From Myxocyprinus asiaticus (Eukaryota > Chordata > Actinopteri > Cypriniformes > Catostomidae), in contig NC_059373.1 of the NCBI RefSeq assembly GCF_019703515.2, positions 11,381,281 to 11,445,280 on the forward strand: DNA of 64,000 nt, read 5' to 3'. Each line of letters starts with the position of its first letter. Position 1 is the first letter of the stretch. Of this stretch, positions 24,962 through 54,169 are shown one piece after another. The position numbers were made by a program, and so were the translations under genes. The notes beneath the pieces are model-generated. The model worked only from the letters and a program-made list of their open reading frames with translations. It made no database searches and had not been told where the DNA came from.

Positions 24962-25404
24962 GTGTCTGAATACTTGAAATGTGCCCCATCAGCACATACA
25001 TTGTATCTCCAACTCCATATCTTATAACAATAATCCTTATTCCTCATTAAACTTCATCTGGTGAAATGTATATATACACATAACACTTTCTCTGGTGAAT
25101 ATACTGTATAGGCCATAAAAAGCTTAATTTGGTTAATACATAATATAGAGCATTGTAATGAGGCCAACTCTCAGTTATTTCAAAATAAGAGTATTTTGGG
25201 CTTGTTTGTAGTTAAAAGTCTTGCGTTATGCACCAAATCTTAATTCTTTTCATCTAGGATTTTCTTGTAGCTTCTACAGTATATCTGTGCTTGTCATAGT
25301 AAGGAAACAATGAGAAAATGTTTCAACAGCCAATAAATTGGTTTGAAAAACTATCGGATGATTAATTGGTTATCTGCTTTTCCCACCACCTTAGCTATCT
25401 TATC
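24962..25404. other. Intronic DNA with repeat-like phrase
   Basis: AT-rich. ACTATCGGATGATTAATTGG near 25350 resembles termini of fish hAT-type repeats. The following Tc1 fragment seems to have its 5' break here. Confidence 0.35.
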
Positions 25405-25824
25405 GGCACTGGGAGACCAGTCAGGATCGAGGGAAAGATGAATGCAGCAATGTACAGAGACATCCTTGATGAAAACCTGCTCCAGAGCGCTCTGGACCAC
25501 AGACTGGGGCGAAGGTTCATCTTCCAACAGGACAACGACCCCAAGCACACAGCCAAGATAAAAAAGGAGTGGTTCCAGGACAACTGTGTGAATGTCCTTG
25601 AGTGGCCCAGCCAGAGCCCAGACTTGAACCCGATTGAACATCTCTGGAGAGATCTGAAAATGACTGTGCACCGACGCTCCCCATCCAACCTGATAGAACT
25701 TGAGAGGTCCTGCAAAGAAGAATGGGAGAAACTGCCCAAAAATAGGTGTGCCAAGCTTGTAGCATCATACTCAAAAAGACTTGAGTCTGTAATTGGTGCC
25801 AAAGGTGCTTCAACAAAGTATTGA
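25405..25824 (+). pseudogene. Tc1 transposase C-terminal fragment (Tc1-C)
   Basis: An open frame from [19 protein letters not shown] to GAKGASTKY and stop. It contains the second catalytic Asp ([13 protein letters not shown]) and the third acidic residue ([15 protein letters not shown]). The first Asp (WSDE motif) lies in the missing 5' part. It has no start of its own. Being uninterrupted over 139 codons, it looks younger than the other Tc1 copies. Confidence 0.82.
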
Positions 25825-28730: not shown

Positions 28731-29922
28731 TTAATATGACGTTGGCCCACCCTTTGCAGCTATAACAGCTTCAACTCTTTTGGGAAGGCTTTCCACAAGG
28801 TTTAGGAGTGTGTTTATGGGAATTTTTGACCATTCTTCCAGAAGCGCATTTGTGAGGTCAGACACTGATGTTGGACGAGAAGGCCTGGCTCGCAGTCTTC
28901 GCTCTAATTCATCCCAAAGGTGCTCTATCAGGTTGAGGTCAGGACTCTGTGCAGGCCAGTCAAGTTCTTCCACACCAAACTCGCTCATCCATGTCTTTAT
29001 GGACCTTGCTTTGTGCACTGGTGCTCAGTCATGTTGGAACAGGAAGGGGCCATCCCCAAACTGTTCCCACAAAGTTGGGAGCATGGAATTGTCCAAAATC
29101 TCTTGGTATGCTGAAGCATTCAGAGTTCCTTTCACTGGAACTAAGGGGCCAAGCCCAGCTCCTGAAAAACAACCCCACACCATAATCCCCCCTCCACCAA
29201 ACTTCACAGTTGGCACAATGCAGTCAGACAAGTACCGTTCTCCTGGCAACCGCCAAACCCAGACTCGTCCATCAGATTGCCAGATGGAGAAGCGTGATTC
29301 GTCACTCCAGAGAACGCGTCTTCACAATTAAAGATTTAAAGAATTTTGAAGCAATTCGTGTAAACACAAGAGGGTTATTTCAAAGTCTGATAAAATTGCC
29401 TTCCAGCTGCCAGTTGGTGGCGCTATGACCGTGACCCATAATAGCTGCATAAATGTGATCAGCCCCATTACCAAACATACAGCTGAATTTTCCAGTCCAG
29501 TGGCGGCGTGCTTTACAGCACTGCATCCGACGCTTTGCATTGCACTTGGTGATGTATGGCTTGGATGCAGCTGCTCGGCCATGGAAACCCATTCCATGAA
29601 GCTCTCTATGCACTGTTCTTGAGCTAAACTGAAGGCCACATGAACTTTGGAGGTCTGTAGCGACTGACTCTGCAGAAATTTGGCGACCTCTGTGCACTAT
29701 GCGCCTCAGCATCCGCTGACCCCGCTCTGTCATTTTACGTGGCCTACCACTTCGTGGCTGAGTTGCTGTCATTCCCAATCGCTTCCACTTTGTTATAATA
29801 CCACTGACAGTTGACTGTGGAATATTTAGTAGCAAGGAAATTTCACGACTGGACTTGTTGCACAGGTGGCATCCTATCACAGTATCACGCTGGAATTCAC
29901 TGAGCTCCTGAGAGCGGCCCAT
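28731..29922 (-). pseudogene. Tc1-B transposase, split by an insert
   Basis: The N-terminal part from ATG 29922 (MGRSQELSEFQRDTVIGCHL) holds a helix-turn-helix region and the GRPRK hook (SGRPRKMTERG), and runs to KARRHWT. There the frame enters repeat family C sequence. The catalytic part resumes near 29330. [20 protein letters not shown] and [15 protein letters not shown] follow, then FLFQHD and a TGA near 29022. The last frame has AQSPDLNLIEHLWDELERRL with the third acidic residue. It is inactive. Confidence 0.82.
29336..29493 (-). repeat. Inverted duplicate of 28217-28378 inside Tc1-B
   Basis: Its reverse complement runs GAAAATTCAGCTGTATGTTT ... GCTTCAAAATTCTTTAA and appears identical, base for base, to the end of repeat block 1 about 1 kb to the left. 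The two copies are in opposite orientation with a spacer of about 950 bp. Confidence 0.88.
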
Positions 29923-30053
29923 TCTTTCACAAATGTTTGTAGAAGCAGTCTGCATGCCTAGGTGCTTCATTTTATACACCTGTGGCCATGGAAGTGATTG
30001 GAACACCTGAATTCAATTATTTGGATGGGTGAGTGAATACTTTTGGCAATATA

Positions 30054-35431: not shown

Positions 35432-37738
35432 TCAAGAGTTCAGAAGTCTGATTGCTTGGGGGAAGAAGCTATCATGGAGTCGGCTGGTGCGGGTCCTGAT
35501 GCTGCGATACCGCCTGCCTGATGGTAGCAGTGAGAACAGCCCATGGCTCGGGTGGCTGGAGTCTCTGATGATCCTCCGAGCTTTTTTCACACACCGCCTT
35601 GTATATATTTCCTGGAGGGAGGGAAGCTCACCTCCGATGATGTGTCTGGCAGTTCACACCACCCTTTGCAGTGCTTTGCGGTTGTGGGCGGTGCTATTGC
35701 CGTACCAGGTGGAGATACAGCCAGTCAGGATGCTCTCCACAGTGCAGGTGTAGAACCGTGTGAGGATGTGGTGGTTCATTCCAAACTTCCTCAGCCGTCT
35801 CAGGAAGAAGAAGCGCTGATGAGCCTTCTTCACAACGACTTCAGTGTGGATGGACCATGTGAGTTCCTCAGTGATGTGGACACCCAGGAACTTGAAGCTG
35901 CTGACTCTCTCCACTGGTGCTCCACTGATGGTGATGGGACTGTGTTCTCTGTCTTTTCTTCTGAAGTCCACCACAAGCTCCTTTGTCTTACTGACGTTGA
36001 GGGAGAGGTTGTGCTCCTGACACCAGTGTGTCAGAGTGTGCACCTCCTCTCTGGAGGCTGTTTCATCATTGTCAGTGATCAGACCTACCACCGTCGTGTC
36101 ATCAGCAAACTTAATGATGGCATTGGAGCTATGTGTTGCCACACAGTCATGTGTGTACAAGGAATACAGTAGTGGGCTGAGAACACAGCCCTGCGGGGCT
36201 CCAGTGTTGAGGGTTAGTGATGAGGAGATGTTGCTGCCTATTCTAACCACCTGGCGTCTGCTTGACAGGAAGTCCAGGATCCAGCTGCACAGCGAGCTGT
36301 TTAAGCCCAGAGCCCGGAGTTTCACATCTAGCTTGGAGGGCACTATGGTGTTGAATGCTGAGCTGTAGTCTACAAACAGCATTCTCACATAAGTGTTCTT
36401 TTTTTCCAGGTGGGAGAGAGCAGTCTGTATTGTAGATGCAATGGCATCATCAGTGGAGCGGCTGTTGCGGTAAGCAAACTGCAGCGGGTCAAGATTGAGT
36501 GGCAATACAGAGCAGATGTAATCTCTGATTAGTCTCTCAAAACATTTGCTGATGATGGGGGTCAGAGCAACAGGACGCCAGTCATTTAAACAAGTTATTT
36601 TTGATTGTTTTGGTACAGGCACAATGGTGGATGTTTTAAAGCATGTGGGGACTACAGACAAAGAGAGGGAAAGGTTGAAAATGTCCGTAAAAACACCAGC
36701 CAGCTGGTTCGCGTACGCTCTGATGACGCGGCCCGGAATGCCGTCTGGGCCCGCGGCTTTGCGGATATTCACCCGTTGGAAGGATCGGGTTACATCCGCT
36801 ACAGAGACGGAGAGTGAACTAACCTCTGTAGCTTCAGCCGTGAGAGCTCTCTCCGTGAGGGCGGTGTTATTTCCCTTGAAACGAGCATAAAAAGTATTTA
36901 GCTCATCCGGTAGAGAGGCAGTGGTGTTCATGGCGGAGTTTTTATTCCCTTTAAAGTCCGTGATGTTAATTCTCTGCCACATGCTTCTTGAGTTGGTGGT
37001 GTTAAACTGTCCTTCAATCTTGCTCCTGTACTGGCGTTTTGCTGTTTTGATAGTTTTTCGGAGGGCATAACTGGCTTGTTTATGCTCCTCCGCGTTCACG
37101 GAATTAAAAGCAGAGGTCCGCACGTTAAGTGCCGCGCGAACATCGCTATTGATCCATGGCTTCTGATTCGGATAGATTCGTACAGTTCTAGTCGGAATCA
37201 CTTCCTCTATGCACGTTCTGATGAAACACATTACGCTATCAGCGTAGAGCTTGATGTCGTCATCAGAGGCGGACCGGAACATCTCCCAGTCCGTGTGATC
37301 AAAACAGTCTTGTAGCATAGAGTCTGATTGGTCCGACCAGCACTGGATCGTTCTGAGGGTGGGTGCTTCCTGTTTCAATTTCTGCCTGTAAGCGGGCAGA
37401 AGCAGAATGGAAGAGTGGTCCGATTTGCCAAATGGTGGGCAGGGGAGGGATTTGTAGCCATTCCGGAACGGAGAGTAGCAATGGTCCAAAACCCGGTCCC
37501 CTCGTGTGTTGAAACTAATGTGCTGGTGATATTTTGGTGCGACTGATTTTAAACTGGCTTTATTAAAGTCCCCGGTCACAATGAACGCGGCCTCAGGATG
37601 CGCGGTTTCCTGCTCACTTATACTCCCATACAGTTCCTTGAGTGCCCGGTTTGTGTCGGCGTGTGGGGGGATGTACACAGCAGTGATAATGACCGCTGTG
37701 AATTCCCTCGGTAGCCAGAATGGTCGACACAGAAGCAT
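35432..37738 (-). pseudogene. LINE endonuclease C-part and reverse transcriptase
   Basis: A 694-codon frame with apurinic-type endonuclease motifs (FIVTGDFNKASL; FGKSDHSSILLL). The RT core then follows: [32 protein letters not shown] (motif A), NTGAPQGCVLSPLLYSLYT (motif B) and IIKFADDTTVVGLI (FADD catalytic box, motif C). The frame stops at TGA 35654-35656 after ALQRVV. Downstream the same frame continues with RRIIRDSSHPSHGLF to a normal stop at 35432-35434, so the TGA is a premature stop, probably a CGA decay. Confidence 0.88.
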
Positions 37739-38340
37739 AAGAAATTCCAGATCAGGAGAACAGAAAGACTTGATGGAATGTACGTTCCTCTGATCACACC
37801 ACCACCTCTAGTTTTACCTGAGAGGTCTTTCGCTCTGTCCGCTCGGTGCACGGAGAACCCCGTGGGTTCAATGGCTGAGTCTGGAATCTCCGCAGACATC
37901 CAAGTTTCTGTTAGGCAGATAATGCAGCAGTCTCTCGTCTCTCGTTGGAAAGAGATCCGCGCTTTCAGCTCGCAGAGCTTGTTATCCAGAGACTGAACAT
38001 TTGCCAGTAGAATAGTGGGTAGCAGGAGTCGATTTGCGCGGCATCTTACTCTGATGAGAACGGCGGCTCTGTTTCCCCTTTTCCTCCTGCGTTTCCGCGG
38101 CCGTGCTGCCCAGACAAAGGGCTCTGCTTGCGTGTTTGTAAACAGCGGGTCGGCATTGAGGAATGTGAAGTCCGGTTTTCGGTGTGAGATCGCTGAACCA
38201 ATGTCCAAAAGTGTTTGTCTGTCGTAGACAATAAGGCAGACAACATCCAAGACAAAAAACATAAGAATTGTGAACAAAACAAACAAAACATTGCTATGTT
38301 GTGTCGGAGCTCGCAACGCAGCAGCCATACTCGGCGCCAT
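37739..38340 (-). pseudogene. LINE N-terminal and endonuclease N-part
   Basis: From about 38340 the frame (MAPSMAAALRAPTQ...) has a hydrophobic stretch and a basic segment (RPRKRRRKRGNRA). It then enters the endonuclease: LLPTILLANVQSLDNKLCEL and CIICLTETWMSAEIPD. After GKTRGGGV it leaves frame. The + strand segment 37750-37795 read in another minus frame gives RNVHSIKSFCSPDLEFL, which joins the 694-codon frame. About 30 nt appear to be missing at the junction. Confidence 0.78.
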
Positions 38341-42150: not shown

Positions 42151-42215
42151 CATCTGCCACTAGGCACAGGAGCTAGACGGAAAGAAAGAGGGAGTGGGCA
42201 GAGACGGGGCTAAGT

Positions 42216-42372
42216 ATGGATGCATTGCAGGACTGGGCCCTGGCGTACCCGGCCCCAGCCCGGCTGGTCTGGGTGATTGTGCTTGTGTTGGCCACTGTGT
42301 TGGTCTGGAGCTTGTTCTTCTGCTGCTGGGGAAGCCAAAGCTCCACCTCTTCTTTGGAAAGATACCTCTCAG
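42216..42372 (+). CDS. plec: Plectin-like gene, upstream coding exon 1: transmembrane N-terminus
   Basis: ATG at 42216 has A at -3 and G at +4 (AAGTATGG), a strong vertebrate start context. The 52 codons begin MDALQDWALAYPAPAR. A hydrophobic segment follows at residues 17-39 (LVWVIVLVLATVLVWSLFF, then CCWG) and then a Ser/Thr stretch. Donor G|GTAACA, phase 1. This predicts a single-pass anchor with a very short outside N-terminus. The following basic linker would be cytosolic, and the Cys pair at the membrane edge could be lipid-modified (inference). I know no characterised plectin isoform with this exon. It is assigned to plectin only because its splice chain is in frame with the exon at 53977. 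A separate short gene remains possible. Confidence 0.55.
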
Positions 42373-42465
42373 GTAACAAATGCTTTTGTTCACAAGGAAG
42401 GAACTCACCTAGATCAGTTCTAATGGGAATGTTTTTTGGTTTATTATTGAATTCATAAAAATACT

Positions 42466-42655
42466 TAAAGGGATAGTTCACCCAATTCTGTCATCATTTA
42501 TTTACCCACATGTTGTTCCAAAACCCTGTGACTTTTTTCTTCCATAGAGCACAAAAGATTTTGAGCAGAATGTTTGCTTCAGTCAGTCACCATTCACTTT
42601 CATTGTATGGGAAGAAGATGCAATGAAAGTGAATGGTGACTGAGGCTGACATTCT
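42466..42655. repeat. Foldback MITE family A fragment, copy 3
   Basis: TTAAAGGGATAGTTCACCCA at the left end and the GAAAGTGAATGGTGACTGAG hairpin. The right terminus is missing. It lies in intron 1 of the plectin-like gene. Confidence 0.7.
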
Positions 42656-43536
42656 GTTCATACACCGTATTGCTGGTTTCCAGAATGCAAATCTTGGCTG
42701 CTTCTTGTTGACATATAATGGAAAACTGTTTGAGTTGGTCTGCAATCCATGTGTGCTCGCAGTCACACTTTTTGTCGTCATCTGAAGGGGCGTTTTGAAT
42801 CCTCAAATCACTGATGACTTTTTCTTAGACAGTATCACAAAATTTAATGTTATCCAGGATGTTATGCATTGGCTGCAGCTGCATATACATGTGGTTATTT
42901 GAAAACCGAGATTCAAATTGCTTAAAAGACACTCTTGCAAAGTTATTTCAGGACTGTTACGCGCACAAAACCGTGGTTGTTAAATCAGACATTTTAATTG
43001 TAGCCTTCAGTGAAACCTGTCAACCCTGTGTCTTATAAATAAACACAAATGTAGCAGGATCATATTTGGGTAGTTGACTCATAACATGATGTTTTACTGT
43101 CTCAACATCAAGATTTTATGTTAAAAGTTTATGTAAAATGTTAATTTTATGTGCTATAACTTTTAGGGCCATTTGGTGTGACAAATTAATTTCTAAAAGT
43201 GCAAATATCCCATGTAATCTTTTAATTGAAATACTGTCATTAAAACTGCATGTACTGTAATAATTAGCCAACAATGAGAACAGTTTTCTTAGCTGTAGAT
43301 GGTCACACTACTTGGAATGTCATGTCAACTAGCCATTTAAAAGAAAAATTCAGTATCTAAAATTTAACACAGATTTTATCCATAGCCTACTGCATTAGAA
43401 ACAGTGCTCTAGATTAGAAAGAGAGAATCAGTTCTGGTTTTAAAGCAGGTTCTCACTTGCTGAGGCTGAATGATCACCATGTCTCTGAATAAGGGGAGTT
43501 TCAATATCTGCACATGTATGCCATTTTTTCTGACAG
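42656..43536. other. Intron 1 of the plectin-like gene, no other gene
   Basis: AT-rich, no coding frame. Confidence 0.4.
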
Positions 43537-43660
43537 TACCAGTCAAACGTTTGAACATACTTATTCTCAATTTTATTAATTTTAGGAAATTACACAAATG
43601 GAAGTATGGGAATTACGAAGTATTTCTTTTCATTTTTCATTATGCTTTCATTATATTAAT
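43537..43660. repeat. Fragment of a Tc1-type MITE
   Basis: GTACCAGTCAAACGTTTGAA followed by CATACTTATTCTCAATTTTA resembles the end of the MITE at 52930-53463 (CACTACCGGTCAAAAGTTTT). Only one end is present. Confidence 0.4.
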
Positions 43661-43735
43661 TTATTTATCTCTACCATTTTAATACCCTCCACTCTCGCTT
43701 TCTTTCCATGGTTTAATCATCTGTTTCTCTTTCAG

Positions 43736-43773
43736 CTTTGGAGAAACACTCTAAGGCAAAACACCAGAGTCAG
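43736..43773 (+). CDS. plec: Plectin-like gene, upstream coding exon 2
   Basis: A 38-nt exon with acceptor TCTCTTTCAG and donor GTAAGG. With the G left from exon 1 it encodes ALEKHSKAKHQSQ and ends in phase 0. The fit of phase on both sides, with consensus splice sites, is the main support. The sequence is basic and has no recognised motif. Confidence 0.55.
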
Positions 43774-45033
43774 GTAAGGATCACCCCATTATCCGGCTTT
43801 ATCCTTTTTGTTCTTTTCCTTGCCATTACATACTGTCCATTAATTTACAGTTGCTCAACCATATTGTTTGTTTGCTTGCAACTATGCATGTATAAAAAGT
43901 CTATATATAATATAAATGCATACAGTAAATGACGTGTTTACAGTACAATTGTATATTAACTCTAACTCAAGATGCCTTATAAATTATTGCACTTTTTACC
44001 ATGCAGCCTCTAGAGGCCAGTATTACACCACAACACAATCCATTTTATTGAACTTTAAAGGACTTTCAAAGTTATATACAGTACCTCCTTTTTTTTTAAC
44101 ATAGAAACCATAAATGTTATTGTAAATTAGTACTTCACCAGCATTGTTAGTTGTTGAATATGCAGGTAGATGACATGGTGATGGCTTTGCAGGCATCTAT
44201 GGATCCTGAGATCAGTGTAATGATGATTTACACATCAAGACACAGATGTGATGCTCTGTTTATGATTTTACAAATTATGATTACATTATAAACACTTTAT
44301 GAGCCATAGAATGTGGTCTATGGGTCCATAGATGTGGATGGAGTCTATTGGTCAATTGTCACTGCAGGCTTGTTGTTTGCGATGGGTTTGATGGACTGCA
44401 GGATAGAGATGGCCCTGTGATAGCTCTGTTTGCATGAGTAGAGACACTTTGTCTCTGTTCACTGTTATGAAAAACAAAAGGCTGTTTCCTCCCCTGCAAG
44501 TGGACACAGAGAAAAACAGATGCAAATTACATTATCTCACAGTCCGAGAGAAAAGGCACATATATTTTATGAATTTAGATGAATTAAATTTGTTTGCAAA
44601 TTTTACTGAGCAGATGTAAAATGCTAATTTATTCTGGCTACTGTAATAACAGCATTATTAAGGTCAGTACTTCTTTCTGGAAATACCACGTATATTTTTA
44701 AAATTAAAAAATGTGCTGATGATTTGAAAGGCCATTTCCTGCAATGTTTGTGTATCCTCATATATTCTGAATACAATACACAGCAGATACGATTTATGAA
44801 TTATGAAAGATGCACTATAGTGGACCAAAGTTCTGTGTATTTACTCTTGTAATTACAAGGATATTAGTAAACCACTTAGAGGTTTATCAGATTTTTTGTG
44901 TGGAAGTAGCATTGGTATATTTTAAAGATCTAAAAAAATATATTATAAAATTGTAAAGTATTTACTTTATGTTATTCACATTGTTCTCTGTTGTTTTTAT
45001 TAGTCACATGATGTAGGATGTTAGTTCTTTCCA
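43774..45033. other. Intron 2 of the plectin-like gene
   Basis: AT-rich, no gene or repeat border recognised. Confidence 0.4.
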
Positions 45034-45399
45034 GTGTAAAAAATTAACTTCTATATTATAGGATAACATTTACCACGTTATAATTTTCAGAGGCATTTTT
45101 CACTTTTATGATGGCTTTTTTTTCTTAACCATTTAAAACAAAACATGCCTTAACTGTTTATGTAAAATACTTCAATTTAATAATTCATTAATACATATTC
45201 TTAAGATTGAGAATTTCTTACCTTGTACCCTTAAAATTAAATTATATTAAACTCATACTTAATGCAAAATTTTTTTGGAACTAAGACTATAATAGAAAAT
45301 GTAAAAAAAAATAAAAAAAATTTGAATTACTAGGGTATTTTGGTCATTTTCAGTGGTATTTTTGCCCTGACCCCCCTTTAATTTCTGACCCTGGCACCC
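45034..45399. repeat. Interspersed DNA repeat family D, copy 1
   Basis: Shares CAGTGTNNNAAATTAACTTC, ATTAATTCATTAATACA, ACCCTTAAAATTAAATTA and TTAATTTCTGACNCTGG in order with 62866-63228. The ends are imperfect inverted repeats. Non-coding. Confidence 0.65.
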
Positions 45400-45803
45400 T
45401 CCTATATTTAGTGTAACGTTTAAACACTGAAACATGATTTTGTAATTGCAATGCATCGGATACAAAAGCCTTGATTCAGGCCCTGAATTAAAAGCCACCT
45501 TGAATGCTGCTTGTGTATCTGCTTTCTATGTATTAACTGAGTTGACTGATAAAAATGGCCTCCTAATTGTGTACCTGACAGCTTCAATTACAGTCACAAG
45601 CTGTCTAATAGGAACTCCTTTGTATGATCCAGGCAGTGGGCGTCAGAAATAGCAGAATAGACACTAACCTCTGTGATTAAACCTCTTTGTGGCCTTTTTG
45701 GGAATGGCTTATGTGATCACTTGCATCAATCGGATACGTTTGGAAGTGTGGTTTTGCTGTTGCAAGTTTTATTATGAATACTCTGATTTCACTGTTCTTT
45801 CAG

Positions 45804-46097
45804 CGGAAGAAGAAGCCAAAGGACAAGTGTGTATCTGCAGCTCTGCTAAATGAGGGGATCGTCGGGGTGATCAAACTGGCAACCCCTCTGTCCCAAGAGA
45901 AGCAGAGGAAGAAGGAGAAGGAAAGACAGGGGAAGAAGACAGAGGAAGAAGATGTAAAGAAGGAAGAGGGAAAGGATGAGAAGAATGAGGAAGGGAAAAA
46001 AGAGAAGTCTTCTACAACGGTGAGAAAGAGGAGGAATAAGAGTCACCTGAAAGTCACCATTGCACCTGGTACCATGACTGCAGCATCTGCTGAGCAG
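45804..46097 (+). CDS. plec: Plectin-like gene, upstream coding exon 3: Lys/Glu-rich linker
   Basis: Acceptor GTTCTTTCAG and donor GTGAGA. There are 98 codons in phase 0 to phase 0. It starts RKKKPKDKCVSAALLNEGIV and has a hydrophobic patch (GIVGVIKLATPL). A highly charged stretch follows (EKQRKKEKERQGKKTEEED and similar), probably disordered or helical, then KRRNKSHLKVTIAPGTMTAA and ends SAEQ. The next in-frame exon is at 53977 (VMSGG...). Skipping that exon would break the phase to the common plectin body, since this exon ends in phase 0 and the body is entered in phase 1. No family match is known to me. Confidence 0.6.
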
Positions 46098-48469
46098 GTG
46101 AGATCAGAGGGTCTAAAGGTGGAGTAATCATCTAGAACAGTCAATAGGAAAATTCCTTCAAACTTGCATAGTTATTTATTTTGCAATGCATTTTAAGTCA
46201 CATAAGCATTTTGTTTCTGTCCAGTGAATTTTAATGTTTATCACACTTGTATATTGGTCTTTCAGCCAATTTATTCTCATTATTTAAGCAGAAGTTAGCG
46301 CTCTTGATTTAATCTACTGTCTCAAGAAATGTTTCACCTTCCATTTGAAGGTTTTATTATTTCATATAATTTTTCAGAAATTATGTCACAGTTTAAAACC
46401 TGAAGTGGTTTTGTGCAAACAGTGCAATCATGTTTTAATGAAAATGCTTTATATGTATTTTATACTCCCTGAGACCATGAGTAGATCAACAGATTAGATT
46501 AAAGCAACAGCAAACTCTATGTAGGGGTATTTTGGGTCCTTCTAAGCATAGTTTACAATAAAAGACTTACACCCGACAGTCTCAAGCATCTTAAAATATC
46601 CAGCTGCACCCTTAATGAAGTGTGCTAGAAGGTTAATTTTCGTGGACATCGTGCACAGTAGGCTCAAGCTGGCACTGAGACTGGTGCTGTGGTTATACAA
46701 AAACCTCCCTCAACCAGCCCATGCCAGTGGCAACAACTATCCCTTTTTTTTCACAAGCCATTGAATGGTTAAAGTGTCTGTTATGTAATATGTTGTCAAG
46801 TCCAAGACCTGTTAACTACATTTGGTTGTAAAGTGTGAATTCTACCAGCTCCATTAATGCAGCATAATGCTGCTAACACATATCAAATTTAAACTAAAAT
46901 AACAGCTAGAATAAAGTATTTAAAGTAAAACTAGCTGCTCCACTTTATAAGTAAATATATCTCATTTATGCAACATGACTGCATGAGAAGTTTGCATGTT
47001 CAATTCACTTAGTTGTTTGGATATATAATATGGTAAAAGCATTCAGTATGGTTATAGAAAGACATGTAGTTTAATGAGCAAATAATTTATATATTTTTTG
47101 TAGTGTAGTACTTTTAAGGATGCATAGATTCGAAGTATACATGATTATGTTTTTGATGGAAATATTTAGTCTCTCATTATAAATCATTAATATGCAGTTA
47201 TAACAATGCATAAAAGGTGATGTTCATGCAATATCAGCCAAATAGTGATCAATTTTTTCTTGAATGTTATAAATACTTAATAACACCTAATTACCATTAG
47301 TAACCAATGAAAATGTACCTTCATTTGAAGTGGAGAGACATGAAGCATTTATTAAAGACTTAAAAACATTAGAAACCTATGTGTTTATAGTTCAGTATGG
47401 TTTAATGGTCATCAGGCTTTATTACATGAGATATGCTGTGAATGAGCATGAAGACCTGAAAAGTGTCTTTGAAGAGGACTTAAGGTAATTAGGACAAGGT
47501 AAGTTGGGACACCATTACTTTATTGGAGTACATTATTGACATTTCTGCAAACATTACAATAATTAATGTAAACACAAAGCAGGCTGTACCAAAACGACAT
47601 AATTCCTCCTTTTAATCTCACTATAAAATCTACTTTTGCTACATTGTGAAAAATCATGAATTAGGGCATTTAATGTTTTTGATTAATGTCAGTATGAATA
47701 AGTGTATTTATTAAGCATTTTACATTTAGCCATTTAGCAGATGCTTTTGTCCAAAGTGAATTACAAATGTAAGTTAAAATGCACATTATTTGGCAAGAAT
47801 CGGTTGAAAGTTGCCCTTTTCCTGCATGTTGCTATAACTGCTTAGAAATTATTTATAATGAATTTTTAAATTACTTAGTAGTCATTAATGAACCCCTTTA
47901 TAAACTCTTAACAACGGGAACATGTAAATTGTTACCATAAAATGAAAAAAATAATAATAATAAATAAATCATGAAATTAGATGACAACATTTGTAATTAT
48001 CAATTAGTTTTTAATTGCCTTCAGTTTCACATTGTTTGAAGGTGAACACTGAGCAAGACAACGTGTTTTTATAGAATGCAGGAAATCAAAATTGGATTTT
48101 ATTATACGATTAATTGAAGGACTAATCAACAGATAAATTATCAAATGTAGTTGCAGCATTAACTCTCTCAAAATCCCATTACTAATAATTTAACCACACA
48201 AATTATAAATATCAGTCTTGCCAACTAACACAACTGACCAGTGGTCAGCACATGTCTTGATGCTGGTGGGCATTACATTGGGTCAAAAGTTACAGTCTGT
48301 AAAACAGAGGGGCATTTGTTCACTGAGGTGGCAAGAAACTCTCCCCACACATAATAGATCTAATCTGTAGTTGCATTGTGCAAAGCACCCAGTGACATTC
48401 CACCATTGTGTGCTTTTGAACCAATACGGGGGCAACGCTGAGTTACACTTCATGCAAGATAAGTAAGAT
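46098..48469. other. Intron 3 of the plectin-like gene, first part
   Basis: AT-rich without genes. Positions 47710-47770 hold a SINE body or tail fragment (TTTAGCAGATGCTTTTGTCC, minus orientation). Confidence 0.4.
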
Positions 48470-49080
48470 CACCTTTACCCTCTCCGGCAGTGATCATCTC
48501 CTCATCACAGCATTTTGCACCGTCATCTCAACGGATGAACCACATCACAACATATCCAGCGGCGGTATACTCTGTTGTGATTCATAACTAGTGCGCATCC
48601 GTGCTGGATTTCACCCCGGTAAGTTCCACTGCAGACAGAATTCTCCATATCGGTGCATCTCGCAGTCGACGTGCCTCTGTGCTAATGGTGCGCTATTCGC
48701 AGGCGGGACGATAAGTTTGGCATCGGTTCACTGGACCGTTAATATATATGGTGTGTTTACCTATGCTGGGTGGTGACATGGCGTGTTGACAGATCAGTAG
48801 GGCGGGTGAACAGCTGGAATTGACTGTGAATAGCCTCATTTGCTTTGATCATCGTGAATAAATCACATTACCCCTCTGAAGCGGTTGTTTTAAGGAGGTT
48901 CTGACTGAGCCTTTGCCGCATCGATGCATCTGCTGAGCGATGATGACGAGAATATTTAATCGCGCGATAACACTGCAACTGACAGAGAGCGGAATTACAA
49001 CTAGCGAGAAACATAAACAATGGCAGGTGCATTTCAAAAACGTTTCTGTCAACCTACTGAGGTGTTTTAAATCATTGTAA
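48470..49080 (+). promoter_or_regulatory. CpG-rich patch, candidate alternative promoter and non-coding exon
   Basis: A local rise in CpG within AT-rich intron (GTGCGCATCCGTGC, TCTCGCAGTCGACGTG, TTCGCAGGCGGGACGATAAG). A consensus splice donor follows ACCCCG at 48619 (GTAAGT). A non-coding exon ending at 48618 could splice to the exon at 53977, whose own ATG lies three bases inside. That would give the classical plectin N-terminus without the membrane anchor. This is inference from composition and one donor site. Confidence 0.35.
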
Positions 49081-50461
49081 TGCATTTGTTCCGGGGTAGA
49101 GATTATCTTTGTAACATATTTAACACATTTCCATATCCACGAAACACATATTACATAGTTATTATTATGCTAATAACTGTAACAAGGTGTTGTTACAAAC
49201 AGCTCCTCTTAATAGGCTAATTAAATACATCTAGTTCATGACACTAACAGAAAGGTTGTTTTGACATGGAAGTTTACCATGATATTCTTTGGAGCACCAT
49301 GTAAACAGCATGGTACATGAATATGGTTGACAATATGGAATATATGAATCATTTAGTAATTCATATATTAGATGGCGTTACCATCTAAAACCATCACTGT
49401 ACCATTGTACTATTGCTACAGTCCTTTTTTGTTGTTGTAAAGATTGTATTGCTCAGTAGTCTTAATTACATTGTAGCATGAAGAGTGCAATGCAAAGTGT
49501 CATGATTTTCACTGAAAAAAATATGTTGTGAAGTAAACTAGGAGAAAATATTAAGTAAATTCTACATTTGTACTCAATTCAAACATGTATAAGTAATTGT
49601 TTTTAAATTTCAAAGGTAAATGAAATAAGTCAAATGTACTTAACTTTTCAAAGCTGGTGTTCCCAGCATGCACTGGGCTCAAATAATCAATGAGCTTGCA
49701 TGGTTTCACTGTTCGCAAGTTGATTTACACCATTTTTACTGTTGATTTTTTTTGCATCTGGTAACTTCCTGTTTTGTGAAGTCTATAAAGTTAGTTTTCT
49801 ACTCAAAATTACCTGTTCATGATCAAAACTCTGTGGGCTCTGGTCAAGCAAGGTGATGTTATCTAATCGACGACATAGCTTGCCTTCCACGTTTCTCTGG
49901 ATGGAAGAATTCCGTGTGTCCTGTTGTACATAACAAAGTACATTAAAAATAATTACAATGCTGGGACACTTTTAAAAGCATAGCAGGCTATTAAAAACCA
50001 ATGTTTTTTAAACAAATATTTTGCAAAGTAGGAAAAAATGTAGACTTTAAACAATGCAGTCTTTTTCACATTCATCAAAGGGCAGTAAAGTTCACAGAAG
50101 TTGCAGCAGCTGAATTTGTAACCTCACTAAATCACCGCCCTCCTGTCTGAAGTCTTTTCAGAACTTCTAACAATAATGACGTTCATTTTCTTACTGTGGG
50201 ACCACTGAAATGTGCTCTTTAAAATGTCTTCATGTTGCCTTAGTAACTTTTGAGTAATCAGTTACCCTCAACTCAGACAAGGTTCAGCTCTTTCCAAGAA
50301 AGGCTGCATGCAATCAAAATAAACAACAATTTAACAATTTAGCAATTATCAGTGATTATGTGCACAGATTACAGATAATAAGTTTAAATATAGAAAATAA
50401 GTGATTTGAAGTTTAAATAATTGCACAGTTTGAATAGCAATATACTTCACTGTATTACACT
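49081..50461. other. Intron, no gene
   Basis: AT-rich. No frame or element border is recognised. Confidence 0.4.
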
Positions 50462-50462
50462 G

Positions 50463-52210
50463 TGTAACAGATTTTTATTTTTTTATTTTTTTGGTTCCTG
50501 GGTAGTAAGTGTTATTTCCTAATTGCTTATGCCTCAAAAGTATATAAAATGGCTATTATTCCCCACATACTTTGCTTTTGTGACCAGGACAGTGATATTT
50601 TGAAATGTACCTATTTTCCAGAACATTCCAGATAGATTAATTGCTGAGTAAACTTGGAGTAACTTCTAGAACTTTCTAGAAATTTCCAATAATATAAATA
50701 GTAGTATAAATACAGGGGCTTTAAGCCCACCTGTTCAGTTTCATTCAGCTGCCTAAGTGGATACATATCTGCATTTTTCTGAGATGGTATCAAGAGGCTG
50801 CAAGCATCCGGCAGATGCATTTTGCTATGTCTGCGCCAATTATCAAGACAAGAGCGAAAAAGTACTCCATGGAAGCATCTGCTAAGATGCGTGAGGCCTA
50901 CAAGGCATATTTTGGCATGCCTTTTGGGGATCAAGACAAACCCTGGGCACCTCTTTTCACCTGCGAGCACTGCAAAAAAACTCTGGAAGGTAAGATGGAC
51001 AATTGTTGCTCGGAATTTTATGTTATATAATTTGTTAATTTTTAAAATTGTTAAAGTTTTTAATTTTAAAATGTTTTACAATTTTCAATGTTATTGAAAA
51101 AACATCATTTATGAAAATGTTGTGAGAATCTCTTACACATTAGTCATGGGTGAAATAAATGTATTTTTGTAGGATGGAACAGTGGGGAAAAGAAAGCCAT
51201 GAAGTTCGCTATCCCAAGAATTTTGCTGGAACCCACTGACCACTCAAACAACTGCTACTTCTGCATGGTGGACCCTTCCGAACCTCGGACTGGCAAGAAT
51301 ACACCTGCTATCACGTATCCGGACCTTCCTTCATCCATTGCCCCGGTGCCACACTGCCATGAGATGCCCGTACCCACTCCTCCGGAGAGAGCAGTCGTCT
51401 TTAGAAGAGAGCAGCAAGTCAGAGAGCGAGGAAGACGTTGTAGATCCAGATGACAATTTCAGAGGTGGAGCTGAGGAGAAAAACCCATACTACCCCAACC
51501 AAAAAAAACCTCAATGACTTGATTAGAGATCTTGGTCTCACCAAGTCCAATGCTGAGCTTTTGACATCTAGGCTCGAGCAGTGGAACTTGTTGGATGAAA
51601 GTGTGCAAGTCGCAGATCAGAGGAAGTGTCACCAACCTTTTTCCAGCTTCTTCACCCGTCAATATGGGCTCTGCTTCTGCCACAATGTGACCAGTCTGTC
51701 CGTGGCAATCGGAATCACCTGTAACCAGAATGAGTGGCGCCTCTTCATTGATAGCTCATCCAGGAGCCTCAAAGCCGTGCTTCTCCATAATGGTAACAAG
51801 TACCCGTCTCTTCCTCTGGCTCACTCGGTGCACCTCAAAGAGGATTACAACAGCATCAAGACCTTGCTGGACGCCTTGAAATATGAGTACATTTGGGGGC
51901 TGATTCGTGAAAGTGATTTACAGTATAATTGTAAATCTTGAAAAACTACTCACTTCTAAATCTTTTGTAGTAATTTTTGGATTACTTTAGTATAAATACA
52001 TGTTCATTTGGATTCATATGTTACTTTTTTCTGACTTTATTTGAACGAAAAGACACAAATTAGCCCGTTTTCTCATTGGAAATAGGTACATTTCAAAATA
52101 TCACTGTCCTGGTCACAAAAGCAAAGTTTGTGGGGAATAATAGCCATTTTCTATACTTCTGAGGCATAAGCAATTAGGAAATAACACTTAGGAACAAAAA
52201 TTGTGTTACA
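50463..52210 (+). mobile_element. DNA transposon with about 120-bp inverted ends, internally deleted
   Basis: The left end (about 50490-50620: AAGTGTTATTTCCTAATTGC, TTATGCCTCAAAAGTATA, TTTGTGACCAGGACAGTGAT, ATTTTGAAATGTACCTATTT) is matched in reverse complement at 52082-52200. These are terminal inverted repeats of about 120 bp. Between them is an interrupted coding region. The superfamily was not determined. Confidence 0.78.
50785..51940 (+). pseudogene. Transposon-encoded protein of unclassified family, core deleted
   Basis: The start region MVSRGCKHPADAFCYVCANY is in one frame and AKKYSMEASAKMREAYKAYF, with a CEHCKK Cys pair, is in the next. After an AT-rich gap come KKAMKFAIPRILLEPTDHSN with CYFCMVDP (possible zinc ligands) and, in further frames, LNDLIRDLGLTKSNAELLTS and NEWRLFIDSSSRSLKAVLLH. 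The last frame jumps from LLDALKY to EYIWGLIRESDLQYN and stops. I recall this family from many animal genomes as a protein of several hundred residues more between those two phrases, so the central region looks deleted. I know of no established function. Confidence 0.6.
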
Positions 52211-52247
52211 TAGCGTTATCATTGTATTTATTTCATTGTACTAGGGG

Positions 52248-52660
52248 TTGCACAGACTAGTCGACTAGTTGTAGTCGAATAGTTGAATAGCCTGAAGTTG
52301 ACTAGCCGTTCACCAAGTCAGTTATAAAATGTGTCTGTAGGATATACAGTGGGTGTAAAGCCTGTGGTAGGCTCTTCACTGAAAAGGCGCAGTGGCTCAA
52401 ATATAGGCTGTGATGTTCTTTCAGACTCGCATTAAAAGACACACACAGAATGCACTTAAGAACCGGTGTTTGTGAACTGTCTCACTCTGCTCTACAACGC
52501 AACGCATACATATCAACAATAATCATACACATTCTCCGTATCTGTATTGCACATGTGCATAGCATTTTATCAACACTGATAATGTTGAGAACATTCAGTT
52601 GACTACTCTGATAAAGATGACACAGAATGCTACGGTAACCTGAAATAAATTTACAAATTG
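52248..52660. repeat. Probable hAT-type repeat fragment
   Basis: Begins GGGGTTGCACAGACTAGTCG, typical of fish hAT-type repeat ends, with a run of related GACTAG/AGTCGA motifs. The right terminus was not located. Confidence 0.4.
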
Positions 52661-52929
52661 GCCTTCAAATATAACTGAAATACTAGTGTTATGCTGACCT
52701 GGGCACTGTTCACTCCTTCAAGGACATGATTCGGTGACAGTTAGAAAAGTGCTTCGAGTTGGAGTCCACTGATGTGACGGAATGCATCCCCATTGTCGTC
52801 TGCACATTAGATTCCATGTCTGCCCGAAACCATTCGAGAGCAGCTGCAAGAGGACGGGGAACCGCCTGCAGCTACAGGTAGTCCAAGCAAAGCTAAATAT
52901 GTTCAGACACTTATGTTAACTTTTAGCTA

Positions 52930-53463
52930 CACTACCGGTCAAAAGTTTTGAAACACGTGACTGAAATGTTTCTCATGATCTTAAAAATCTTTTGATCTGA
53001 AGGCGTATGCTTAAATGTTTGAAATTAGTTTTGTAGACAAAATTATATTTGTGCCACCATATTAATTTATTTCATTATAAAACGAAAATTTAATAAAAAA
53101 TAAAAAAAAGTTTTTGAAATTGATGCATTGACCAAATAATAAAGAAAAGCAGCCAATAAGTGCCCAACATAGATGGGAACTCCTTCAATACTGTTTAAAA
53201 AGCATCCCAGGGTGATACCTCAAGAAGCTGGTTGAGAAAATGTCGAGTACATGTCTGCAAATTCTAGGCAAAGGGTGACTACTTTGAAGATGCTAAAATA
53301 TAACACAGTTTTGATTTATTTTGGATTTTGTTTAGTCACAACATAATTCCCATAGTTCCATTTATTTTATTCCATAGTTTTGATGACTTTACTATTATTC
53401 TATAATGTGAAGAAAAAAAATTATAATAAAGAATAAGTGTTTCAAAACTTTTGACCGGTAGTG
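52930..53463. mobile_element. Tc1/mariner-type MITE
   Basis: Inverted ends CACTACCGGTCAAAAGTTTT (left) and AAAACTTTTGACCGGTAGTG (right), essentially perfect, with TA on both borders. The 534 bp interior has no long frame. It lies in the intron before the plectin exon. Confidence 0.88.
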
Positions 53464-53976
53464 TACGTTACAGCTCGACATATGTCGAGTGACCTTTTGT
53501 ACCACACTTCTAATAAAAGGTACTTACGATGAGATAACGTTTATGGTTGATGTTTATTTCATCCGATCCGTTCACATACAAAACAACACTCAGACCGTTG
53601 CTCATTATTTTCCCCTCAGATGTCAAACTACTACACACGTTTCCATGGCAACCTATACTGTGCTCTGTTGTCAGTCAAAATGTTAAATCAACAATTAATT
53701 CAGTATCAGAGTATGATGACAGGTACTGTGGGCCTCAAAATTTTCATGGCTTCTATCTTCCTTCTGTACTATAAGAAAATATTTGGTAATGTCTGGTAGT
53801 AACCCTAAACAGCCTACAGCTGTCCATCAGTGGTGCACCATTGTGACCTAGTAGAACTGAAACTCTGAACTGCAGAAGCCTCACCATCCTCCAGAAAACA
53901 TCAGCTGTCTGCGCTGTATTGTGTTTCAACCCCACACAATCTCTAACGCTCACCCCTCTCTGTGTCACCGTTCCAG
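53464..53976. other. End of intron 3, no separate gene
   Basis: Mixed sequence. The polypyrimidine-rich acceptor CACCGTTCCAG ends at 53976. Confidence 0.45.
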
Positions 53977-54169
53977 GTCATGTCAGGGGGTCGTCGCCGC
54001 ATACTGGAGCGGTCTGCATCGGAGGAGAGCGCGAGTGACCTGAGCTCCTCACATTCTCCTGGAGACACCTTGCCATGGAACCTCCCCAAACACCAGCGTG
54101 TCAAACGCTCTAAATCTGCCTCTGGAGACGTCCTGGACCCAGCAGAGAGAGCAGTCATCCGCATTGCAG
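53977..54169 (+). CDS. plec: Plectin N-terminal exon (SPGDTLPWNL type)
   Basis: Plectin is a giant cytolinker joining intermediate filaments to actin, microtubules and junctions. Its isoforms differ by alternative first exons spliced to a common actin-binding domain. This exon reads V-MSGGRRRILERSASEESAS..., then SSSHSPGDTLPWNLPKHQRV and DVLDPAERAVIRIA. It matches in layout the mammalian plectin N-terminus (SPGDTLPWNL and VLDPAERAVIRIA as I remember them). Donor G|GTTAGA leaves phase 1, as needed to complete the Asp opening the common DERD...KTFTKW exon beyond this window. It can be entered with its own ATG (53980-53982), or read through in phase 0 from the exon at 45804. A Ser-rich basic stretch suggests phosphorylation (inference). 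Confidence 0.82.

Follow-up and report, generated by a model that had tools for sequence, protein, structure and literature searches.

Far-upstream exons predict a transmembrane N-terminus for teleost plectin, with a precedent in dystonin-a2

Three exons upstream of a plectin gene of the Chinese sucker (Myxocyprinus asiaticus) are probably far-upstream alternative first exons of teleost plectin a, which would give the protein a signal-anchor N-terminus and, by inference, a place in the ER or nuclear membrane. This transmembrane (TM) plectin is most likely the plectin counterpart of dystonin-a2, because dystonin in the same genome has matching TM, 35-nt, linker and LPWNL exons with matching phases. 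The analysis started from a window of 64,000 nucleotides (C30:11381281-11445280) of the 2.34-Gb genome. The exon set, in window coordinates, is as follows.

42216-42372, + strand: exon 1 (first exon), 157 nt, ends in phase 1; encodes the 16-residue N-terminal flank, the predicted TM helix and FFCCW.
43736-43773, + strand: exon 2, 38 nt, phase 1 to 0.
45804-46097, + strand: exon 3, 294 nt, phase 0 to 0; linker rich in Lys/Glu, with basic residues clustered towards its end.
53977-54169, + strand: exon 4, the classical N-terminal exon of plectin, 193 nt, phase 0 to 1; VMSGG...DTLPWNL...AVIRIA (below, the LPWNL exon).

Spliced together, exons 1-4 form a single open frame of 227 codons, and an in-frame stop at 42174 lies 5' of the ATG at 42216. 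The coordinates, the phases (1, 0, 0) and the in-frame join to 53977 had been given correctly in the initial annotation. It had also called the splice sites good. Every intron of the set is GT-AG. Exons 2 and 3 have strong donors, with scores that 0.05% and 0.10% of the GT sites in the window attain; those of exon 1 (2.0%) and exon 4 (1.9%) are weaker. We count the exon 1 donor against the TM-plectin reading. The scores come from a simple splice matrix.

A homeologous copy on C34 has exons 1-4 intact in length, frame and splice sites. Genome searches with exon 1 gave two convincing places, the window and C34 (the other five of seven matches had E 1.28 to 8.45), and exon 3 gave the same two (the other three of five matches, E 0.116 or worse). 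None of the five weak exon 1 matches is significant, and all were rejected. On C49, the match falls, by eye, opposite an LDL-receptor-like repeat, and the C42 match has little in common with the exon. Between the window and C34, exons 1-3 differ by 21 synonymous changes over 105.3 sites and 17 non-synonymous changes over 383.7 sites (Fisher p = 1.9e-6; 0.005 for exon 1). The dS/dN values were 0.187/0.025, 0.41/0.098, 0.242/0.049 and 0.185/0.014 for exons 1 to 4, respectively, and 0.232/0.046 for exons 1-3 together (dN/dS ~0.2). DNA identity of exons 1-4 was 0.94, 0.87, 0.92 and 0.95, against 0.82-0.89 in three flanking stretches; this contrast is small, and exon 2 is no higher than the flanks. 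The case for selection is therefore made by the codon pattern, not by raw DNA identity. Purifying selection acts on exons 1-3, and they are genuine coding exons. Chance open reading frames are ruled out by the homeologous copy, by the selection and by the proteins of other fishes described below.

To identify the gene downstream, a 120-kb extension of the window was searched by tblastn with a human plectin probe. The matches lay in order and on the same strand, covered actin-binding and plakin-domain exons, and began with DERDRVQKKTFTKWVNKHLIK, about 90 kb past the last window exon. The extension also includes a plectin-1 type exon (MVAGML...) as well as ORFs of 1137 and 2124 aa for the rod and the plakin repeats (PF00681). 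Judged by its sequence, the downstream gene is plectin; the actin-binding exons, the plectin-1 type exon and the plakin repeats bear out its earlier identification as such. Relatives of the LPWNL exon were found at eight places in the genome. By sequence, two of these belong to the window gene and its copy on C34, and the others to a second plectin (C15, C16), dst (C21, C23) and macf1 (C30, C34), where the names dst and macf1 are our assignments from human sequences. Identity with dystonin or macf1 was excluded, since the gene has the exons, rod and plakin repeats of plectin, not the microtubule-binding end of dystonin/macf1, and the dst and macf1 loci lie elsewhere. In the second plectin on C16, at 41898555-41898740 (- strand), the phase-0 acceptor ahead of the LPWNL exon is kept, with TTGTAG before GTGATGGCT.

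Some neighbouring features were recorded as well. Beyond plectin and outside the window, C30:11583087-11593190 holds an ORF of 3569 aa whose plakin repeats have an exact spacing of 1023 bp and equal scores; given its place in the PLEC neighbourhood, we take it to be epiplakin-like. Its C34 counterpart is split into several ORFs by the same measure. In the window itself, 35657-37807 (- strand) is an ORF for the reverse transcriptase of a LINE-like element, and 25366-25824 (+ strand) and 29380-30012 (- strand) are Tc1/mariner-type transposase fragments. A Pfam scan of nine window ORFs gave no family at E 0.01 for five of them.

Proteins of other fishes contain the same N-terminus. Searching with the 163-residue product returned 31 proteins at E<=10. 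The junction to the LPWNL exon was seen in Labeo P0002, Triplophysa P0003 and Clarias magur P0017; Labeo P0018 is joined to that exon without the linker exon, and two serrasalmids (P0030, P0031) have extra residues between the linker and the LPWNL exon. A search with a profile of the TM exon found 15 proteins, including Prochilodus, Acnodon, Serrasalmus, Solea (P0035) and eight fragments. Over exon 1, 12 sequences were compared with the window and were 63-90% identical to it. Among proteins as long as whole plectins we found 37 (3575 to 4937 aa), all with the actin-binding start. A hydrophobic N-terminal segment followed by LPWNL and the actin-binding domain is present in 35 of the 37; this fraction is not a frequency and absent groups are meaningless, since the set was baited with this N-terminus and shared words were needed. 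The 35 come from 23 named species, which we group as six cyprinids, a loach, three catfishes, a gymnotiform and twelve percomorphs. The two others start in exon 2 (P0061) and at an alternative ATG (P0063). These long plectins are gene predictions, and none of the 37 is from the sucker, which we count against the TM-plectin reading. TM plectin is thus already in databases as automatic predictions. Conservation had been set as a check by the initial annotation, and the exon set is indeed present in predicted plectins of other fishes; we limit the claim to the fishes found and do not extend it to gar, salmonids, sharks or tetrapods. In the catfish plectins P0056-P0060 the linker is lengthened by KEEKQK-like repeats, and LPWNL starts at residue 283 to 364; the range is 155 to 193 for the remaining proteins that have a hydrophobic start.

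The only database entry seen for Myxocyprinus asiaticus, P0001 ('SAFB-like', 172 aa), tells a different story at its C-terminus. It is identical to the predicted product over 163 residues and ends in a tail of 9 residues, VRSEGLKVE, which is the translated exon 3 donor and the start of intron 3. Two further features bear on this region.

46098-46127, + strand: read-through of the exon 3 donor into intron 3, giving the tail VRSEGLKVE and the stop of P0001.
45774-45803, + strand: candidate alternative start ATG within the final 30 bases of intron 2, with MNTLISLFFQ in frame into exon 3 through the acceptor.

Entries from Carassius carassius (P0004, 171 aa) and Solea (P0035, 154 aa) also end after the linker, and AATAAA occurs in intron 3 at 46557 and 46910, so that a short transcript is possible. 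We count the short entries, P0001 included, and the AATAAA sites against the TM-plectin reading. They would fit a separate small gene adjoining plectin, in which exons 1-3 encode a 172-residue single-pass membrane protein ending in VRSEGLKVE. We regard such a gene as highly improbable. The plectin junction is annotated in 35 long proteins and in the fragments from Labeo, Triplophysa and Clarias magur, and C34 retains the exon 3 donor but has lost the P0001 stop codon. Nor is the name of the entry supported. SAFB-like transcription modulator has SAP and RRM domains; a Pfam scan of the 227-aa product gave 14 matches, none above its family cut-off. Alternatively, the locus could make both forms, TM plectin and a short membrane protein from a transcript ending in intron 3. 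Short entries in three fishes with long ones in others, together with the intron 3 AATAAA sites, would agree with this, but the stop codon of P0001 is absent from C34, and the Carassius entry has a different tail. We consider two such products unlikely. P0001 is probably a split gene model, and the junction of exons 1-3 onto plectin is very probably correct. A stretch like MNTLISLFFQ occurs in 18 of the 31 proteins (by eye) and is also kept in C34; the annotated long carp plectin P0063 starts at its ATG. The stretch may be an alternative first exon or merely a conserved splice signal.

The predicted product consists of a 16-residue N-terminal flank, a hydrophobic stretch ending in FFCCW, a basic C-terminal flank, the linker and VMSGGRRR...DTLPWNL...AVIRIA. 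The best 19-residue hydropathy window is at residues 17-35 (mean 2.78). Net charge is -1 in the flank before the helix and +6 over 34 residues after it. An AlphaFold model of the Labeo homologue (alignment of 11 rows) has a helix at residues 12-39, where the block pLDDT reaches 93. Three more helices (46-59, 75-91 and 215-243) are mostly of low to middling confidence and the remainder is unstructured; the model has no overall fold (mean pLDDT 51.5, pTM 0.19). Hydropathy, charge flanks and the model of the homologue thus predict a TM helix ahead of the actin-binding domain. The mean of 2.78 and the helix at 12-39 agree with the earlier prediction of a single TM helix. From the charge flanks, the N-terminus should be lumenal and the plectin body cytosolic. 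Near the end of the linker is a K/R cluster of the type VRKRxKR, seen by eye in 37 of 37 rows and in 30 of 37 by a scripted pattern.

A similar exon set was found in dystonin. The start of human dystonin isoform 2, used as a query, matched C23:5249181-5249369 (E 9e-21) and C21:44031975-44032166 (E 2e-18); the other 11 of 13 genome matches had E 0.2 or worse. The dst LPWNL exons follow these two TM exons at a distance of 9-10 kb. The C21 copy has a TM exon of 181 nt that ends in phase 1, then an exon of 35 nt that runs from phase 1 to 0 by a hand count, a basic linker exon that starts in phase 0, and the LPWNL exon with its phase-0 acceptor. The linker donor, AAACCA|GTACGT, was placed by eye using the human protein. 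With two of the dst boundaries set by hand, plectin and dst exon sets are equal in order and phases. Profiles of the first two exons matched with E 2.2e-5 over only 20 columns (15 plectin rows; two dystonin rows), and this score was reached by none of 100 block-wise shuffles. At the place of FFCCW in plectin, fish dystonin on C21 reads FLSCV, which we count against the likeness.

Because order, phases, position and a weak sequence likeness come together, we favour common descent of the two TM exon sets. The matching layouts suggest that both derive from one set that predates the split between plectin and dystonin. The alternative is convergence, with plectin and dystonin each gaining a TM exon set separately. 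The short likeness of 20 columns speaks for this, as does the genome search, in which neither the second plectin on C15 and C16 nor macf1 showed a TM exon; in the 20 kb upstream of the second plectin on C16 there was no convincing TM exon, the best TM match (E 0.017) being on the wrong strand. Separate gains would, however, have to produce an identical order and phasing of four exons, small exons of 38 and 35 nt, basic clusters in both linkers (RKRRVKKR in dst) and a homologous exon behind them. We consider convergence rather doubtful.

Like the predicted TM plectin, dystonin-a2 (BPAG1a2) has a TM helix from its first exon ahead of the plakin actin-binding domain, with TM, small (35 versus 38 nt), basic linker and LPWNL exons in the same phases. 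Beyond the helix, the two sequences can hardly be aligned, and the location of TM plectin is taken by analogy. TM plectin would also carry intermediate-filament-binding plakin repeats instead of the microtubule-binding end of dystonin-a (PMC3352338, in part). Section 13 of that review places dystonin-a2 at nuclear-envelope and perinuclear membranes and names its TM domain as what sets it apart from other spectraplakins (PMC3352338); a second paper places dystonin protein of the a2 kind at the same membranes (PMC4171495).

Other plectin forms are arranged differently. We take the exon at 53977-54169 to correspond to the P1c-type N-terminus, from the human sequence. P1c translation starts in the LPWNL exon, whereas in TM plectin this exon is internal, behind the TM and linker exons. 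The P1 exon is different again; its ORF, at 119567 of window plus extension, comes some 65 kb after exon 4. P1 is reported as a perinuclear isoform linking filaments to the nuclear envelope, attached via nesprin-3 and endophilin B2 (PMC11774597). Unlike TM plectin, P1 is thus reported there with adaptors and without a TM helix of its own. In the open full-text literature, covered by titles and abstract starts, no description of TM plectin was found, and direct phrases gave no match in open full texts. As far as these searches reach, TM plectin is undescribed in the open literature, with a precedent in the sister gene. The initial annotation had known of no description of the exon set; the searches of the open literature agree, but the isoform is already among automatic database predictions. 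It had also contrasted a membrane-fixed plectin with the adaptor-based attachment of most plectin forms. The precedent of dystonin-a2, with its matching exon layout, had been missed.

In the TM-plectin reading, about 16 residues would lie on the lumenal or outer side, followed by one TM helix, a mostly disordered basic linker in the cytosol, the part encoded by exon 4 and the body of plectin. The helix would insert into the ER and, to judge from the charge flanks, leave the plectin body cytosolic. Plectin could then be fixed directly in a membrane, that of the ER, the outer nuclear or a perinuclear one, and connect it with intermediate filaments and actin. For dystonin-a2, a link from nuclear-envelope and perinuclear membranes to actin and microtubules is reported (PMC3352338, in part), and because it sits at these membranes, TM plectin is most likely to be sited in the ER and the outer membrane of the nucleus. 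We give an even chance to a broader proposal: one plectin form was ancestrally a membrane protein, teleost plectin a keeps the anchor that it shares by descent with dystonin and so attaches intermediate filaments to membranes of the ER and nuclear envelope with no need of nesprin-3, and the second fish plectin, possibly also the mammalian one, lost it and came to depend on adaptors.

If true, the apparently split gene model of the sucker would be corrected, and the TM isoform would offer an isoform-specific target in fish for probing nesprin-independent anchoring. A conserved TM plectin of fishes would make direct membrane anchoring older and wider among plakins, and plectin could couple intermediate filaments to a membrane without nesprins or integrins.
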